From positions 1-64,000 of the forward strand of contig CAMDLR010000005.1 in NCBI GenBank assembly GCA_945901845.1: a stretch of DNA of 64,000 nt, in the 5' to 3' direction. Source of the stretch: Sediminibacterium ginsengisoli. Its GTDB lineage: Bacteria; Bacteroidota; Bacteroidia; Chitinophagales; Chitinophagaceae. The position numbers and the translations under genes were made by a program. Positions within the stretch are counted from its first letter, which is position 1. The number at the start of each line of letters is the position of its first letter. The notes under the pieces were generated by a model, which ran no database searches, was not told where the DNA came from, and saw nothing but the letters and a program-made list of their open reading frames with translations. Of this stretch, positions 5,867 through 59,454 are shown in pieces.

Positions 5867-5939
<73 letters not shown>

Positions 5940-37947: not shown

Positions 37948-37955
37948 TACTTTTG
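37948..37955 (+). promoter_or_regulatory. -7 box (TACTTTTG) of the SRP RNA gene
   Basis: TAnnTTTG match ending about 5 nt before the start of the RNA's terminal stem, at the correct distance for transcription initiation. Confidence 0.55.
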
Positions 37956-37957
37956 CA

Positions 37958-38060
37958 CCGGCAGGTCTTACACGACCAGCTCCTGCAGAACCTCCCCAGG
38001 GTAGGAATACAGCAAGGATAAGCGGTTGAGCGGTGCGATGTGAGTAGCCTGCCATTTTTT
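37958..38060 (+). ncRNA. ffs: Small bacterial signal recognition particle RNA
   Basis: Pairs with Ffh in targeting membrane proteins. The terminal stem GGCAGG (37960-37965) pairs with CCTGCC (38048-38053), giving a rod of about 95 nt. The apical region CCAGGGTAGGAATACAGCA contains the GGAA tetraloop and the conserved CAGG/AGCA internal-loop pair of helix 8. A T-run (ATTTTTTTT) follows the closing stem. The exact ends are uncertain by a few bases. A GTG at 38040 inside it can be mistaken for the fsa start. Confidence 0.92.
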
Positions 38061-53144: not shown

Positions 53145-53176
53145 TTTGCTCAATGCCCACCAAGGCGCTATTTTTG
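53145..53176 (+). promoter_or_regulatory. Promoter of the histidine operon
   Basis: TTTG (53145-53148), 20 bp, then TATTTTTG (53169-53176): a good Bacteroidota promoter. Transcription should start near 53180-53184, at the leader-peptide ATG itself. Confidence 0.7.
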
Positions 53177-53183
53177 TACTCTA

Positions 53184-53234
53184 ATGAAGCAATTTACACA
53201 TAACCACCATCATCATTTCTTACCAAACGGGTAG
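53184..53234 (+). CDS. hisL: Histidine operon leader peptide
   Basis: A 16-residue peptide, MKQFTHNHHHHFLPNG, ending at TAG. Five of its residues are His, four consecutive. It lies between the his promoter and an intrinsic terminator 34 bp downstream, in front of hisG. Ribosome stalling at the His codons (53199-53216) when charged tRNA-His is scarce would let the region around 53229-53236 pair with the terminator's left arm and allow read-through. Too short for ordinary gene finding. Confidence 0.85.
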   Translation: MKQFTHNHHHHFLPNG

Positions 53235-53297
53235 GCTGTAGGTGTTTGTGTCATAATAAAACATTGAAGAGGCTTACCATTTGGTAGGCCTCTTTTA
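53228..53297 (+). promoter_or_regulatory. Attenuator: antiterminator and intrinsic terminator of the his operon
   Basis: Terminator: AGAGGCTTACCA (53268-53279) pairs with TGGTAGGCCTCT (53282-53293), one G-U, with a T-run after it. Antiterminator candidate: GGTAGGCT from 53230 can pair with the same left arm (AGGCTTACC), including G-U pairs, so the two folds exclude each other. The leader TAG lies within the antiterminator arm, so a ribosome that reaches it would block antitermination. Confidence 0.75.
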
Positions 53298-53312
53298 TTT
53301 TAAACTAAGTAT

Positions 53313-54167
53313 ATGAAATTAAGGTTAGCGATTCAAAAAAGTGGGCGATTGCACGACGATTCTATTAAACTTTTAAAAGAGTGTGGGATTGATATTAGTA
53401 ATGGCCTAAACAAGTTAAAGGCAGAAGCTTCTAATTTCCCCATCGAAGTTTATTTTTTGCGTGATGATGATATTCCTCAATACGTTGAAGATGGTGTTGC
53501 AGATATTGGTATTGTAGGAGAAAATGTAGTGTATGAAAAAAACAAGCCACTAACAGTACTCAACAAATTGGGCTTTGGTAAATGTAGGCTTAGTATTGCT
53601 GTGCGTAAATCTGAAAATTATACAGGCTTATCATTTTTAGAAGGTAAAAAAGTGGCTACTAGCTATCCAGTTATTTTATCAAAATATTTAAAAGACAAGG
53701 GTGTAGCTGCTGAGGTGCATGAAATTAGCGGAAGCGTAGAAATTGCGCCTAGTATAGGTCTTGCTGATGCTATTTGTGATTTGGTAAGTAGTGGATCTAC
53801 TTTATTTTCGAATGGATTAAAAGAAGTGGAAACCATTTTGGTTTCGGAAGCTGTGCTGGTAGCAACCAACTTAATTAGTGCCGAAAAGCAGGCTATCATT
53901 GACCGTTTATTATTTAGAATGGAGGCTGTAAAAAAGGCGCGCAACACCAAATACATTTTATTAAATGCACCCAATGAGAAACTATCGGATATCATTGCAT
54001 TATTACCTGGCATGAAAAGCCCTACAGTTTTACCTTTAGCAGAACCAGGTTGGAGTAGCGTGCATAGCGTACTCAATGAAAATGATTTTTGGGAAATTAT
54101 TGAGCAGTTAAAAGCAGCTGGTGCGCAAGGAATTTTAGTAGTACCCATAGAAAAAATGGTGATATAA
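53313..54167 (+). CDS. hisG: ATP phosphoribosyltransferase, long (HisG-L) form
   Basis: First committed step of histidine synthesis, PRPP plus ATP. 284 aa. LRLAIQKSGRLHDDSIKLLK opens the catalytic domain, with YVEDGVADIGIVGENVVYE (about 55-73) and ISGSVEIAPSIGLADAICDL, DLVSSGSTLFSNGL (about 155-168) forming the PRPP site. The C-terminal 75 residues (VLPLAEPGWSSVHSVLNEND) are the ACT-like regulatory domain. That marks the long form, which needs no HisZ and is feedback-inhibited by histidine. First structural gene after the attenuator. Confidence 0.95.
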   Translation: MKLRLAIQKSGRLHDDSIKLLKECGIDISNGLNKLKAEASNFPIEVYFLRDDDIPQYVEDGVADIGIVGENVVYEKNKPLTVLNKLGFGKCRLSIAVRKSENYTGLSFLEGKKVATSYPVILSKYLKDKGVAAEVHEISGSVEIAPSIGLADAICDLVSSGSTLFSNGLKEVETILVSEAVLVATNLISAEKQAIIDRLLFRMEAVKKARNTKYILLNAPNEKLSDIIALLPGMKSPTVLPLAEPGWSSVHSVLNENDFWEIIEQLKAAGAQGILVVPIEKMVI

Positions 54168-54176
54168 AAATATTGT

Positions 54177-55457
54177 ATGAAAATAATTGTAAACCCTTTA
54201 GTAGAGTCACTTCCGGAATTACTGCAAAGACCAGTAATGGATCATGCTGCACTGCAAACTGTAGTGCAGGCTGTTTTAGATGCGGTACGCACAGGAGGTG
54301 ACAAAGCGGTAGCTTCCTACACAAAACAATTTGATGGTGTTGACATTGATAATCTGCAAGTTTCTACTTCAGAAATAAATGAAGCTACGCTATCACTTGC
54401 ACCTGCATTAAAAGAAGCCATACTGCTTGCTGCAAAAAATATTCGTTGTTTTCATGAAGCGCAGGTAAATGGTCCAGTATCAATAGAAACGATGCCAGGT
54501 GTGCGTTGCTGGCGTAAAACTGTGGGAATTGATAAAGTGGGGCTTTATATACCGGGTGGATCAGCACCATTATTTAGTACAGTTTTGATGCTGGGTATTC
54601 CTGCAGTGATAGCAGGTTGTAAAGAAATTATTTTATGTACGCCTCCATCAAAAGACGGATTAGTACACCCAGCTATTTTATATGCAGCATCGGTGGTAGG
54701 TGTTACTAGTATCTATAAAATAGGTGGTGTGCAGGCCATTGCGGCTATGGCATACGGCACCGAAACGGTGCCGCAGGTGTATAAAATTTTTGGTCCGGGC
54801 AACCAGTATGTTACTGCGGCAAAACAACTGGTACAACAATCAGGTGTGGCTATTGATATGCCTGCAGGGCCTAGCGAAGTGTGTGTATTAGCCGACGAAA
54901 CTTGTAATCCGGCTTTTGTAGCTTCTGATTTATTATCGCAGGCAGAACATGGGCCGGATAGTCAGGTGCTACTAGTAAGTACGAGTAGCATAGTCGTAGA
55001 TCAAATAAACGACGCCTTAGCGTCGCAATTAGCGGTACTCCCACGAAAAAATATTGCGCAACAGGCACTTGAAAACAGCACTGCCATTGTAGTTGACTCC
55101 ATGGAGCGGGCTATTTTTATTGTAAATAGTTACGCTGCAGAGCACCTTATTATTGCTTGCAAAAATGATGAAGTAATTGGCGAACAAATAACCAATGGAG
55201 GTTCTGTTTTTTTAGGAAATTACAGTCCAGAATCGGTGGGCGATTATGCGAGCGGCACTAACCATACATTACCTACAAGTGGTTATGCAAGGGCCTATAG
55301 TGGCGTGAGTGTAGATAGTTTTGTTAAAAAAATAACCTATCAAAAATTAACGCCTGCTGGCCTACAAGCCATTGGAGCAGCAGTAGAAACCATGGCAGCA
55401 GCAGAAGGATTAGACGCACATAAAAATGCAATCACCATTCGTTTGCAAACATTATAA
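54177..55457 (+). CDS. hisD: Histidinol dehydrogenase
   Basis: Two NAD-dependent oxidations of histidinol to histidine, zinc-dependent. 426 aa. VGLYIPGGSAPLFSTVLMLG (about 120-139), KIFGPGNQYVTAAKQLV (about 202-218), AEHGPDSQVLLVS and GNYSPESVGDYASGTNHTLP are the family motifs with the zinc and catalytic His. 9 bp after hisG. Confidence 0.96.
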   Translation: MKIIVNPLVESLPELLQRPVMDHAALQTVVQAVLDAVRTGGDKAVASYTKQFDGVDIDNLQVSTSEINEATLSLAPALKEAILLAAKNIRCFHEAQVNGPVSIETMPGVRCWRKTVGIDKVGLYIPGGSAPLFSTVLMLGIPAVIAGCKEIILCTPPSKDGLVHPAILYAASVVGVTSIYKIGGVQAIAAMAYGTETVPQVYKIFGPGNQYVTAAKQLVQQSGVAIDMPAGPSEVCVLADETCNPAFVASDLLSQAEHGPDSQVLLVSTSSIVVDQINDALASQLAVLPRKNIAQQALENSTAIVVDSMERAIFIVNSYAAEHLIIACKNDEVIGEQITNGGSVFLGNYSPESVGDYASGTNHTLPTSGYARAYSGVSVDSFVKKITYQKLTPAGLQAIGAAVETMAAAEGLDAHKNAITIRLQTL

Positions 55458-55483: not shown

Positions 55484-56536
55484 ATGTTTGATGTTCAAAA
55501 ATTAGTGAGAGAAAATATTAAAAACCTGGCACCGTATTCATCGGCGAGAGATGAATTTAGTGGTATGGCTAAAGTTTTTTTAGACGCCAATGAAAATAGT
55601 TTTGGTTCACCACTAACCAAGTGGTACAACCGCTATCCAGACCCGCATCAAGTGGCTATTAAGGCTGCATTATCTGTGATAAAATCGGTTCCGGCGGAAC
55701 AAGTATTTATTGGCAACGGAAGTGATGAGTGCATTGATTTATTGTTTAGAAGTTTTTGTGCGCCAGGCAAGGATAATGTTATTATTTGTCCCCCAACTTA
55801 TGGCATGTATGAAGTGAGTGCGAATATCAATGATATTCAAATTAAAAAAGCGCCACTGCTTCCTGATTTTCAATTAGACCTGATTCATTTAGAAAATTTA
55901 ATTGACGCCAACACTAAAATAATATGGATTTGTTCGCCTAACAATCCCACAGGAAATTCTATGGAACGTTCCTCAATAGAAATGGTGCTTAATAATTTTA
56001 ATGGCCTAGTCGTTATTGATGAAGCGTATATCAATTTTTCAAAACAAAAATCTTTTATTCAGGAGTTGCAAGACTATCCCAATTTAGTGGTGTTGCAAAC
56101 ATTAAGTAAAGCTTGGGGACTTGCTGGATTAAGACTTGGTATGGCTTTTGCTTCTGAAGCTATCATAGGCATTTTAGACAAAGTAAAGCCTCCGTATAAT
56201 ATCAATACCGCAACCCAAGAGCTAGTGCTTAAAGCGTTAGAAGAAGTGGGGCAGGTAAATGGTATGATTAAAATTATTGTACATATGCGTGAGGCGCTAG
56301 CGAATGTGTTTAGAAAAATGCCTACCGTAGAAAAAGTGTACCCTTCCGATGCTAACTTTTTACTCGTTAAAATAGTAGATGCCAGGGCGGTATATGACTT
56401 TTTGTTAACACAGCAAATAGTGGTTAGAGACCGGAGTAGCGTGGAACTTTGTGAAAACTGCCTCCGAATTACCATTGGCACGGAAAAAGAAAACACGTTG
56501 CTTGTAGATGCCATGCAGGCCTGGTTCAACAGGTAA
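55484..56536 (+). CDS. hisC: Histidinol-phosphate aminotransferase
   Basis: PLP-dependent transamination of imidazole-acetol phosphate. 350 aa. LDANENSFGSPL (about 33-44), FIGNGSDECIDLLFRSF, ICSPNNPTGN (about 149-158), and LQTLSKAWGLAGLRLG with PLP Lys209. Follows hisD by 26 bp. The gene order then breaks: two redox genes stand between hisC and hisB. Confidence 0.95.
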   Translation: MFDVQKLVRENIKNLAPYSSARDEFSGMAKVFLDANENSFGSPLTKWYNRYPDPHQVAIKAALSVIKSVPAEQVFIGNGSDECIDLLFRSFCAPGKDNVIICPPTYGMYEVSANINDIQIKKAPLLPDFQLDLIHLENLIDANTKIIWICSPNNPTGNSMERSSIEMVLNNFNGLVVIDEAYINFSKQKSFIQELQDYPNLVVLQTLSKAWGLAGLRLGMAFASEAIIGILDKVKPPYNINTATQELVLKALEEVGQVNGMIKIIVHMREALANVFRKMPTVEKVYPSDANFLLVKIVDARAVYDFLLTQQIVVRDRSSVELCENCLRITIGTEKENTLLVDAMQAWFNR

Positions 56537-56603: not shown

Positions 56604-57881
56604 ATGAAAAAAGTTACTCAATTTTTAGTTTTCTCAAGCTTGTTTATTTCGATGTTGCTTGCGCATGTTAGCGTATCTGCACAAAATATTAAGCCCGATG
56701 AAGATAATGCAGGCTTAACATTACCAAAAGGATTTGCTGCATTGAAAGTGGCAGATAATTTAGGTCGTACAAGACATATTGTAGTAAATAAACAAGGTGC
56801 TATTTATGCTAAACTTGAAAGACTTGATAATGGCAAAGGCGTTTTAGTTTTAAAAGATACCGATGGTGATGGAAGAGCAGAAACTAAAACATCATTTGGA
56901 AATTATACTGGTACAGGTATTGCTATCAAAGGCAATTATTTATATGCTGCTTCTAACAAAGAAGTATTTAAGTATGCGTTAAATGATAATGGTGACATTG
57001 TTGATGAAAATGCAGCAGCTACTATTGTTACTGGGCTCGTTGATAAAGGACAACACAACTCAAAATCTATTACACTAGATAATGCAGGTAATATTTATGT
57101 AAACGTTGGTGCACCGTCAAATTCATGCCAAGAAAAAGACCGCACCAAAGGTTCGATGGGTATGATGCCTTGTCCAATACTAGATTCGGCAGGTGGTATT
57201 TGGCAGTTTAAAGTAGATCAGTTAAACCAGAGCTACGCTTCAGGTGTGCGCTATGCAACTGGACTTAGAAATGTGGTAGGACTTGATTGGAATAATCAAC
57301 TTAATCAGTTGTTTGTGACACAGCATGGTAGAGATATGCTTAATAATTTATTTCCTGATTTATACGATACTACAATTAGTGCCGAGCTTCCTTCAGAAAC
57401 CATGTACGCTATAAAAAAAGGCGACAATGCAGGCTGGCCTTTTATTTACTATGATCATGTAAAAGGAAAAAAAATGATGGCACCAGAATATGGTGGTGAT
57501 GGGGTTAAAACAGTGGATGATAAATACATCAATCCAGCGATGGCGTTTCCTGCGCACATGGCACCTAACGGTCTTTTATTTTACACCGGTAATCAATTCC
57601 CTGCTCGTTATAAAAATGGTGCGTTTATTGCGTTTCATGGCTCATGGAATAGATCACCGCTTCCGCAAGAAGGCTATTATGTTGTGTTTGTACCTTACGA
57701 AAACGGTAAGCCAACAGGTAAGTGGGAAGTATTTGCAAACGGATTTTCTGGAAAATCAGTGGTGAAAAATCCACGTGATGCACAGCACCGTCCTTGCGGT
57801 TTAGCAGAAGGCCCTGATGGCTCTTTGTACATCTCTGATGATGTGAAAGGAACGATTTATAGAATTATGTATCAAAAATAA
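56604..57881 (+). CDS. PQQ-dependent sugar/sorbosone dehydrogenase-like protein
   Basis: 425 aa with a signal peptide (LVFSSLFISMLLAHVSVSAQ). Six-bladed propeller of the soluble glucose/sorbosone dehydrogenase family: LVLKDTDGDGRAETKTSF (a Ca-binding-like DxDxDG), ATGLRNVVGLDWNNQLNQLF, FVTQHGRDMLNNLFPDLY, KGDNAGWPFIYYDH and the C-terminal RPCGLAEGPDGSLYISDD. Several motifs match the PQQ/Ca site, but PQQ use is inferred. Periplasmic. The cytochrome c gene 6 bp downstream is its likely electron acceptor. The pair sits inside the his operon. Confidence 0.85.
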   Translation: MKKVTQFLVFSSLFISMLLAHVSVSAQNIKPDEDNAGLTLPKGFAALKVADNLGRTRHIVVNKQGAIYAKLERLDNGKGVLVLKDTDGDGRAETKTSFGNYTGTGIAIKGNYLYAASNKEVFKYALNDNGDIVDENAAATIVTGLVDKGQHNSKSITLDNAGNIYVNVGAPSNSCQEKDRTKGSMGMMPCPILDSAGGIWQFKVDQLNQSYASGVRYATGLRNVVGLDWNNQLNQLFVTQHGRDMLNNLFPDLYDTTISAELPSETMYAIKKGDNAGWPFIYYDHVKGKKMMAPEYGGDGVKTVDDKYINPAMAFPAHMAPNGLLFYTGNQFPARYKNGAFIAFHGSWNRSPLPQEGYYVVFVPYENGKPTGKWEVFANGFSGKSVVKNPRDAQHRPCGLAEGPDGSLYISDDVKGTIYRIMYQK

Positions 57882-57887
57882 AAAAAC

Positions 57888-58307
57888 ATGCAGCGTATTT
57901 ATTTAACGTTTGTTGTTCTATTTCTATTTATTGCAGGGGCATCTGCACAAACCAATAATAAACTGGTGGCAGCAAGTATTGCGCGCGGGAAAACAGTTTA
58001 CCTACAGCGTTGTATGGTATGCCATCAAGCAGATGGAGGTGGTGTTCCAAAACTCAACGCACCATTAGATGCATCTACCGCCGTTAATGGATCTGACGTA
58101 TCTAAACTGATAAAGTATATTGTAAAAGGTTTTGCAGACCGTGTTGAAATTGATGGAGAACTCTATTCCAATGCCATGCCTGCAGCCGCAGATTTAACGG
58201 ATCAACAAATTGCAGACGTACTCACTTTTATAAGAAGTAATTGGTCCAATAAAGCAGGTCCTGTATCAACGTTGCAAGTAAAACAAACAAGAAGCAAATT
58301 AAAATAG
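57888..58307 (+). CDS. Periplasmic class I cytochrome c
   Basis: 139 aa with signal peptide (LTFVVLFLFIAGASAQ). A single haem-binding CMVCHQADG (about 43-51) and the distal ligand loop YSNAMPAAADLTD (Met about 97) define a class I cytochrome c. It is 6 bp behind the dehydrogenase gene, which suggests it accepts electrons from it. hisB starts 16 bp further on. Confidence 0.9.
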   Translation: MQRIYLTFVVLFLFIAGASAQTNNKLVAASIARGKTVYLQRCMVCHQADGGGVPKLNAPLDASTAVNGSDVSKLIKYIVKGFADRVEIDGELYSNAMPAAADLTDQQIADVLTFIRSNWSNKAGPVSTLQVKQTRSKLK

Positions 58308-58323
58308 CGTATAATAATCTGGC

Positions 58324-59454
58324 ATGAAGCGAATTTTATTTATAGATAGAGACGGTGTGATTTTACAAGAGCCGCCACAAGATTTTCAAGTAGATAGCAC
58401 AGATAAAACAAGCTTTGTACCGGGCGCTATTGTTGGACTCTCAAATATTGCCGCATCACTCGATTATTATAAAGTAATGGTCACCAACCAAGATGGACTT
58501 GGTACGACATCCTATCCAGCAGATACTTTTTATCCCTACCAAAATTTAATGCTTCGTACACTTGAAGGCGAAGGGTTCACGTTTGATGAGGTGATGATTG
58601 ACAAAACATTTGCACACGAAGATGCGCCTACGCGTAAGCCGGGCACGGGCTTACTTACGCATCTGATGAATAATCCGGCTTACGATTTGACCAACTCATA
58701 TGTTATAGGCGACCGCTACACCGATATACAACTAGCTAAAAATTTAGGGTGTAAAGCTATTTATTTTAAAAGTGATTTGCACCCGCTTACTCCCGAGCAG
58801 GATCAAGACTTACGCGGTACCATCGCGCTTGAAACAAGTAGCTGGCAGGAAGTGTATAGTTTTTTAAAACTAGGCATTCGAAAAGTGAGCCATGCGCGAA
58901 ACACCAACGAAACAAAAATACAAGTAGACATTAACTTGACAGGATCTGGTATTGCCAACATACATACTGGGCTTGGATTTTTTGACCATATGCTCGATCA
59001 AATTGCGCGTCATGGAAATATAGATCTAGCCATCACTACGAGTGGTGATTTACACATTGATGAGCACCACACGATTGAGGATACTGGACTAGCGCTTGGC
59101 GAAGCGTTTGCTTTGGCGCTGGCCGACAAGCGCGGGATGGAGCGTTATGGCTTTGCGCTTCCAATGGATGAAGCAGAAGCAAAAGTACTCATTGATTTTG
59201 GTGGTCGAAATTGGTTGGTATGGGATGCAAGTTTTAAAAGAGAAAAAATAGGAGAGATGCCTACCGAAATGTTTTTCCATTTCTTTAAATCCTTTTCGGA
59301 CGCAGCAAAGTGTAATTTAAACATTAGTTGTGTTGGCGATAATGAGCATCATAAAATAGAAGCCATCTTTAAAGCATTTGCAAAAGCGATTAAAATGGCG
59401 GTTAAGCGCGATGCTTTTTCCAATCACTTACCCACTACAAAAGGGGTTTTGTAA
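58324..59454 (+). CDS. hisB: Bifunctional histidinol-phosphatase / imidazoleglycerol-phosphate dehydratase
   Basis: 376 aa fusion. HAD phosphatase: LFIDRDGVILQEPPQDF (about 4-20) with the DxD nucleophile and VTNQDGLGTTSYP, ending near residue 165. IGP dehydratase (about 185-376): GLGFFDHMLDQIARHGNIDL, DLHIDEHHTIEDTGLALGEA (metal ligands), DFGGRNWLVW and FFHFFKSFSDAAKCNLNIS. The E. coli-like fusion is seen in some Bacteroidota. Last his gene here; hisH, hisA, hisF and hisI/E are not in the window. Converges on the oxidoreductase, 9 bp apart. Confidence 0.96.
   Translation: MKRILFIDRDGVILQEPPQDFQVDSTDKTSFVPGAIVGLSNIAASLDYYKVMVTNQDGLGTTSYPADTFYPYQNLMLRTLEGEGFTFDEVMIDKTFAHEDAPTRKPGTGLLTHLMNNPAYDLTNSYVIGDRYTDIQLAKNLGCKAIYFKSDLHPLTPEQDQDLRGTIALETSSWQEVYSFLKLGIRKVSHARNTNETKIQVDINLTGSGIANIHTGLGFFDHMLDQIARHGNIDLAITTSGDLHIDEHHTIEDTGLALGEAFALALADKRGMERYGFALPMDEAEAKVLIDFGGRNWLVWDASFKREKIGEMPTEMFFHFFKSFSDAAKCNLNISCVGDNEHHKIEAIFKAFAKAIKMAVKRDAFSNHLPTTKGVL

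Follow-up and report, generated by a model that had tools for sequence, protein, structure and literature searches.

A putative ribosome-mediated histidine attenuator before hisG in Sediminibacterium and its candidate lysine-coded relatives

The 64,000-nucleotide stretch of Sediminibacterium ginsengisoli DNA analysed here (the window) carries in front of hisG what is very probably a classical ribosome-mediated transcription attenuator, controlling a hisGDC-(dehydrogenase, cytochrome c)-hisB operon. We computed directly the sequence elements of this leader, their conservation and the mutually exclusive folds that depend on ribosome position; from these we infer that in the cell the leader is translated, the ribosome stalls when tRNA-His is uncharged and the polymerase reads through. 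Comparison of the His leader with its relatives indicates that classical his attenuation is common in Bacteroidota, and led to a candidate lysine attenuator as well as to His leaders without recognisable terminators.

Results

A DUF3472/FKBP-domain gene lies on one side of the complete leader region, and hisG, which comes first among the histidine synthesis genes, directly follows it (Table 1). A first-pass annotation of this DNA had described a TTTG-N20-TATTTTTG promoter, a 16-aa leader peptide with five His and a 12-bp terminator hairpin with a T-run, all placed before hisG. Both promoter elements and the 20-nt spacer are located in the sequence, and the short leader ORF, hisL, runs from the ATG at 53184 with codons for the end product of the operon, five His codons starting at 53199, 53205, 53208, 53211 and 53214. 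Its stop codon, TAG 53232-53234, falls within the 5′ strand of antiterminator helix 1. The downstream gene, with its ATG at 53313, is confirmed as hisG by Pfam HisG and HisG_C matches. An intrinsic terminator is present between the leader ORF and hisG; the hairpin and T-tract stand as described, but the stem measures 13 bp rather than 12, including a closing G-U pair, around a loop at 53279-53282. This terminator is strong by folding, and contributes most to the folding z of -3.8 that the whole leader reaches against shuffles; a leader ending before the terminator 3′ arm gives z = -1.07, which is not significant alone.

Table 1 Features of the leader and the operon behind it, in window coordinates
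Feature	Positions	Strand	Basis
Promoter of the Bacteroidota primary sigma factor type: TTTG, 20-nt spacer, TATTTTTG	53145-53176	+	sequence
Promoter TTTG element	53145-53148	+	
Promoter TATTTTTG element	53169-53176	+	
Predicted 5′ UTR, about 3 nt, with +1 expected at 53181	53181-53183	+	position of the -12 to -5 box, from an excerpt of PMC9723704
Leader peptide ORF hisL, MKQFTHNHHHHFLPNG, 16 codons	53184-53234	+	sequence, family conservation, codon differences
Anti-antiterminator 5′ side: His codons and CUUACC, pairing with 53230-53251 in free RNA	53198-53224	+	folding
Antiterminator helix 1, 5′ strand GGUAGGCU, holding the stop codon	53230-53237	+	folding; alignment
Antiterminator helix 2, 5′ strand GGUGUUU, partner AAACAUU at 53259-53265	53241-53247	+	folding
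GGCUUACC, common to antiterminator (with 53230-53237) and terminator (with 53283-53290)	53271-53278	+	folding, alignment
Intrinsic terminator: 13-bp hairpin 53266-53278/53283-53295 and T-tract 53293-53301	53266-53301	+	folding, covariation
hisG, ATP phosphoribosyltransferase, first controlled gene	53313-54167	+	Pfam HisG, HisG_C
hisD, histidinol dehydrogenase	54177-55457	+	
hisC, aminotransferase class I/II	55484-56536	+	hisC name from operon position
Glucose/sorbosone dehydrogenase-like protein, within operon	56604-57881	+	
Cytochrome c, within operon	57888-58307	+	
hisB, bifunctional histidinol-phosphatase / imidazoleglycerol-phosphate dehydratase	58324-59454	+	NF003937, 500.1 bits, cut-off 443

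We modelled the ribosome by blocking the RNA from -17 to +13 nt relative to the first base of the A-site codon, and folded a transcript ending at 53282, just beyond the terminator 5′ arm. With the ribosome on any of the five His codons, the antiterminator is the best fold at -16.4 kcal/mol, an energy that leaves out kinetics and pausing. In the free RNA of the window leader, the His-codon region and CUUACC pair with 53230-53251, no antiterminator forms and the terminator is left free. A ribosome at the stop codon blocks the antiterminator, because that codon lies inside its 5′ strand, and the terminator forms in silico. The modelled antiterminator thus excludes the terminator and appears only with the ribosome on the His codons. 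The competing pairing claimed by the first-pass annotation is therefore borne out and is larger than claimed, with two helices rather than one pairing, and folding in the alternative states yields the three-state behaviour expected of a classical attenuator. For the full-length transcript, every ribosome state that we folded has the terminator as its best fold; the switch must therefore act during transcription, as known attenuators do.

These folds suggest the following model. The message would start about 3 nt before the leader AUG, and a ribosome could load once the RNA leaves the polymerase. With ample His-tRNA, the ribosome would reach the UAG at 53232, inside the antiterminator 5′ strand, and cover approximately 53215-53245; no antiterminator would then form, and the hairpin 53266-53295 would terminate transcription, leaving an RNA of about 120 nt. 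With scarce His-tRNA, the ribosome would halt on a His codon and break the stem 53198-53224:53230-53251. The freed 53230-53247 would pair with 53259-53278, the terminator 5′ arm would be occupied and the polymerase would continue into hisG. Without any translation, the long leader hairpin would form and transcription would terminate.

The leader is conserved in the family Chitinophagaceae. We collected hisG upstream DNA from the 30 best genomes of 214 with a hisG match (294 searched) and from the best 80 named contigs, two overlapping sets that include the window genome and represent its closest relatives rather than a random draw. At 98% identity, the window hisG matches its counterpart in a Sediminibacterium metagenome assembly of the same family. 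The culturable relatives Chitinophaga pinensis (L092) and Sediminibacterium salmoneum (L087) have a leader of this kind. A leader ORF with at least three consecutive His codons lies upstream in 108 of the 110 hisG loci, window included; in the other two (L025 and L056) the His runs are interrupted. Since leaders were found through this run of at least three His codons, His conservation rests on the 108/110 count; the choice of ORF was mechanical and a start codon may be wrong. Eight of the 108 are exact duplicates, which leaves 100 distinct leaders, many of them mutually close and so not 100 independent events. All 100 switch: stalling strengthens the pairing of the terminator 5′ arm by at least 2 kcal/mol over both the free and the stop state. 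Mean 5′-arm pairing is -9.6 kcal/mol stalled, -1.1 free and -0.7 at the stop, against -2.7 in the shuffled control, and for 94 of the 100 leaders at most five of 100 dinucleotide shuffles match the switch.

Covariation, counted on a MAFFT alignment of 52 less similar leaders, is clearest for the terminator, where nine homologous pairs are 99.1% kept and 40 cells are changed on both sides. Antiterminator helix 1 is paired with the homologue of 53271-53278 in 95.2% of cells. Helices 2 and 3, the counterparts of window helix 2, are kept in 75.7% and 63.0% of cells; the pairs broken in the remaining 24% and 37% are perhaps partly due to misalignment. Overall, 83.2% of antiterminator pairs are kept, and none of 500 shuffles matches the antiterminator covariation score. 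In L015 and L021 the antiterminator strand and both terminator arms change together. For the anti-antiterminator, 81.5% of pairs are kept and 64 of 500 shuffles reach the covariation score, a weak signal; its apical helix (53219-53224:53230-53235) is kept in 91.2% of cells and its lower stem less. Because helix 1 is clear, helices 2 and 3 are mixed and the anti-antiterminator is weak, we weight per-sequence folding above pair counts. What would count against his attenuation had been named in advance: relatives that lack the His run, the terminator and the pairing that competes with it. All three are conserved in the family, the terminator and antiterminator covary in the related genomes, and together with three-state folding this supports the his attenuation reading.

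The peptide itself could be the functional product, in which case the 3′ hairpin would simply be a constitutive terminator that ends a short RNA, and the His run would belong to a small protein with its own function. Leader-derived functional peptides do exist, as an excerpt on peTrpL of Sinorhizobium meliloti describes (PMC10117765), and the strength of the window terminator would suit this explanation, yet we regard it as unlikely: the competing pairing is ribosome-dependent in silico in 100 of 100 family-set leaders, and several leaders (L013, L092, L103 and others) keep the His run and the hairpin while the C-terminal frame shifts, which fits an RNA function and not a peptide function. The codon differences also speak for attenuation. 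Among 35 distinct 16-aa leaders compared pairwise, codons 8-11 differ at codon positions 1, 2 and 3 in 165, 132 and 663 cases, a codon-position bias that indicates coding and hence a presumably translated leader. The His runs of the 100 leaders contain 327 CAT and 84 CAC, and the His codons vary mostly silently.

The leader AUG is predicted to lie close to the 5′ end of the message. As reported in part of a study of Flavobacterium psychrophilum (PMC9723704), a TAnnTTTG box occupies -12 to -5, which would place the window +1 near 53181; the near-leaderless ATG proposed in the first-pass annotation thus holds as a prediction. Across the 110 family loci, 91 distinct leaders have a TAnnTTyG box followed by an in-frame ATG, and 80 of these have a TTTG 16-24 nt upstream, boxes with a TTTG partner having been preferred in the search. 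With the box taken at -12 to -5, the predicted 5′ UTR is 0 nt in 14 of the 91 and at most 8 nt in 71, with a median of 4 and a window value of 3. Box-to-ATG spacing is more variable elsewhere in the class: a box was found for 61 of 86 leaders from other families, and the ATG follows it by 2 to 48 nt. A promoter-gap control on ordinary genes was too small, since the full pattern occurs in seven of 564 genes (gap at most 12 in one of the seven), and published genome-wide figures were therefore used for comparison. Only 5.5% of 890 mRNAs are given as leaderless in an excerpt on F. psychrophilum (PMC9723704). For B. thetaiotaomicron, the share of 5′ UTRs shorter than 10 nt is put at about 3.7% (PMC7366714). 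The leader is therefore a place to ask if selection has favoured near-leaderless starts as a means of keeping the first ribosome in step with the polymerase.

Within the presumably histidine-controlled operon, a redox pair of a dehydrogenase-like protein and a cytochrome c lies between hisC and hisB. The dehydrogenase-like gene is matched in 42 of the 80 named loci and cytochrome c in 37, counts in which many loci end early, and every dehydrogenase match listed lies after hisC; in L070 and L092, hisB directly follows hisC. Upstream of trpE, the window genome has TAAATTTG, 5 nt, the ORF MIQLLNNKWWWHTNSNRGL and a terminator, and this WWW leader occupies L239 3060-2850 on the minus strand. Blocking up to a Trp codon gains -7.7 or -9.4 kcal/mol for the antiterminator, compared with -1.0 free and -2.1 at the stop. 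A cluster (L343, C20:3000-13189) reads, on one strand, trpE, G, D, C, F, B, A, hisH, hisA, hisF and hisIE, with trpE (chorismate-binding), hisA and hisF named by Pfam and the remainder by sequence and position. Since hisHAF-hisIE belong to the trpE cluster, the histidine pathway is split between the His leader and the Trp leader, and half of it lies behind the Trp leader in the window genome.

Several other observations concern the same genome. No HMGL-like (leuA-type) protein exceeds the Pfam cut-off in the 2.1-Mb, 97% complete assembly, which has one weak fragment, and leucine auxotrophy is possible. The window also holds a tRNA (5867-5939) and a Bacteroidales small SRP RNA (37952-38058).

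The His leader extends beyond the family. A class-level search of 296 genomes matched hisG in 136, of which 130 lie outside the family. We read 124 upstream regions outside the family, made up of 100 and 24 of 27 further loci; two belonging to the family and one that was too short (L125) were left out. A short ORF with at least four His in eight residues precedes 96 of these 124 hisG genes from other families of the class, whereas shuffling yields such an ORF in 8 of 2480 cases and reverse-complementing in 1 of 124. Hairpin candidates are present in 95 of the 96 leaders, and 69 of the 95 switch by at least 2 kcal/mol. However, at most five of 100 shuffles do as well in 44 of the 95 only, and the evidence for the switch is clearly weaker outside the family. 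Beyond the class, a His-rich ORF occurs in 20 of 40 chosen upstream regions. Several leaders of other families have a different terminator sequence, of the AACCCGTCTGAG type, which we take to be the Flavobacteriaceae type.

Two groups of leaders stand apart by their 3′ ends. In family f39 (L217-L219, L222, L223, L225, L226, L228, L231 and L237), all ten loci have a His-rich leader ORF that ends 67-88 nt before hisG, and terminator scoring finds no convincing intrinsic terminator in any of the ten (scores 16-24). The f39 leaders have a small hairpin that overlaps the stop as well as the last His codons, and in L228 and L237 a T run accompanies a small A+T-rich hairpin. In families f16, f3 and f48, leaders are longer (L141, L147, L155, L164, L171, L178, L184 and L172), end in HHSS (HHSSL in L171) and keep an ATTCCTC-GAGGAAT-type hairpin around the stop codon; a convincing terminator was not found in these listed leaders (scores 12-26, none for L164). 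The f39 leaders are possibly under translational or Rho-type control. Such a mechanism, in which stalling controls access to the hisG start, or transcription ends by Rho instead of a hairpin, may thus exist in the phylum, given the terminator-less His leaders of f39 and part of f3, f16 and f48. For the window it is very improbable: here and in the family the terminator covaries and carries a T-tract, and the conserved alternative pairing captures exactly the terminator 5′ arm, as transcription attenuation would have it.

We then built a covariance model, R1, from the His leader. The window leader scores 106.5 bits, and of 147 family genomes 124 contain an R1 match with E no worse than 0.01. 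Its nine other matches in the window genome all have E 0.36 or worse. One of these sites, L284, is a SAM riboswitch (1439-1556) before homoserine dehydrogenase, so weak R1 matches alone prove nothing.

Some of the weaker R1 matches in relatives fall away from hisG, at short Lys-rich ORFs. Sixteen hand-picked family matches away from hisG were examined, rather than all such matches, and four (L301, L302, L303 and L306) were dropped by eye, as no Lys-rich ORF could be seen in register with a gene close by. Lys-rich ORFs lie before asd (L295, L298, L300, L304 and L308), aspartate kinase (L294 and L297) and a PLP aminotransferase (L293, L296, L305 and L307). One gene of each kind was checked and the others were named by likeness: L300 passes the NCBIfam cut-off for asd and L294 that for aspartate kinase (TIGR00657), and the L305 aminotransferase is below the cut-offs of the families listed. 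Eleven of the 12 tested Lys-type candidates switch in silico; the exception is L299, before an acetyltransferase-like gene. The peptides are of the type M-x-x-x-KHTKRTKKHS, and the leaders are predicted to be mostly near-leaderless, with CCTTCC or GGCTTACC terminators.

A second search started from asd. Of 191 matching genomes, we took the 30 best loci (L310-L339), and one mechanical rule, by which an ORF start may be wrong, finds a Lys-rich ORF and a terminator in 25. Of these leaders, 22 switch, 21 do so with at most five of 100 shuffles as good, and 21 have the ATG 5-14 nt after a TAnnTTyG box. Among the five misses, L329, L333 and L335 show the same kind of peptide under another rule, and two are without a recognised start. 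Lys density is matched by 3.3 of 50 shuffles on average. As Lys codons are common in A-rich DNA, we give more weight to the repeated KHTKRTKK motif and to where it stands than to Lys content. No Lys leader was seen before asd or aspartate kinase in the window genome. We consider the leaders before asd, aspartate kinase and the aminotransferase candidate lysine attenuators on these modelled grounds; they may instead act as conserved arrest peptides, or sense threonine in addition. We lean towards the view that Chitinophagaceae use one modular near-leaderless attenuator, recoded for His (hisG), Trp (trpE) and, in relatives, lysine.

The conserved RNA architecture of the window leader might instead belong to a metabolite- or tRNA-sensing RNA, a riboswitch or T-box that overlaps a His-rich ORF by chance. 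This is extremely improbable. No T-box, and no other such Rfam family, is matched in the window at gathering scores, the His codons vary mostly silently, and the same layout recurs with Trp or Lys codons before trp or aspartate-family genes. The attenuator reading, to which we return, also lacks an Rfam entry that fits: in a 231-base search, RF00514 (His_leader) gives the window leader 19.9 bits (E 0.29) and misses the gathering cut-off of 49. At a low threshold, the weak matches to Thr_leader, Phe_leader and His_leader are all far below gathering and are read as reflecting a common leader-plus-terminator shape rather than membership. The Lys-rich leaders likewise have no Rfam match at gathering.

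Discussion

If the reading of the Lys-rich leaders is true, they would constitute a lysine-sensing ribosome-mediated attenuator. The RNA control known for the lysine pathway is the L-box riboswitch, according to a passage of a 2005 comparative study (PMC1262725), and no lysine attenuator of the kind described here was found in the open-licence literature. The nearest case is SEP5 of Sinorhizobium, with six Thr and three Lys codons, which is suggested as a possible leader peptide in an extract of PMC10117765.

For histidine, the mechanism is not new and the phylum is not new to attenuation; the sequence type of the window leader is one that Rfam misses. A comparative survey by Lopatovskaya, Seliverstov and Lyubetsky in 2010 reportedly dealt with attenuation of amino acid and aminoacyl-tRNA operons in bacteria and is said to have covered Bacteroidetes/Chlorobi. 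Within the same phylum, strong clues of leader-peptide attenuation before amino-acid operons are described for F. psychrophilum, together with a structured hisG 5′ element that is conserved in Flavobacteriaceae without an Rfam hit; for hisG, neither a peptide nor a switch is named in that paper's section on 5′ cis-regulatory RNAs (PMC9723704). The surprise that the first-pass annotation attached to a his attenuator in another phylum was therefore too strong, as the leader is common in the class and present beyond it and the Flavobacterium clues were reported earlier (PMC9723704).

The enterobacterial his attenuator works as in the model proposed here for the window leader. Both have a His-codon leader before hisG with a mutually exclusive antiterminator and U-tract terminator; the enteric system, RF00514 in Rfam, is summarised in an excerpt of PMC9413887. 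The same excerpt names his attenuators in Proteobacteria and some Firmicutes, and the text of PMC9413887 does not contain "Bacteroid". Its Firmicutes examples resemble the window, by description only, in having leader peptides with three to five consecutive His codons before attenuator and terminator hairpins, and differ in belonging to another phylum and to few lineages (PMC9413887). In a portion of PMC10117765, trpL/rnTrpL of S. meliloti is an attenuator RNA that starts at the leader-peptide AUG; it is a Trp system of Alphaproteobacteria and is described there as leaderless, whereas the window leader is only predicted to be nearly so. Compared with the enterobacterial his attenuator, the window leader has a Bacteroidota promoter and an AUG about 3 nt from the predicted 5′ end. 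Bacteroidota have their own promoter type and initiate independently of Shine-Dalgarno sequences, as part of PMC9723704 states, and his attenuation in a phylum without this reliance would thus not depend on initiation of the enteric type.
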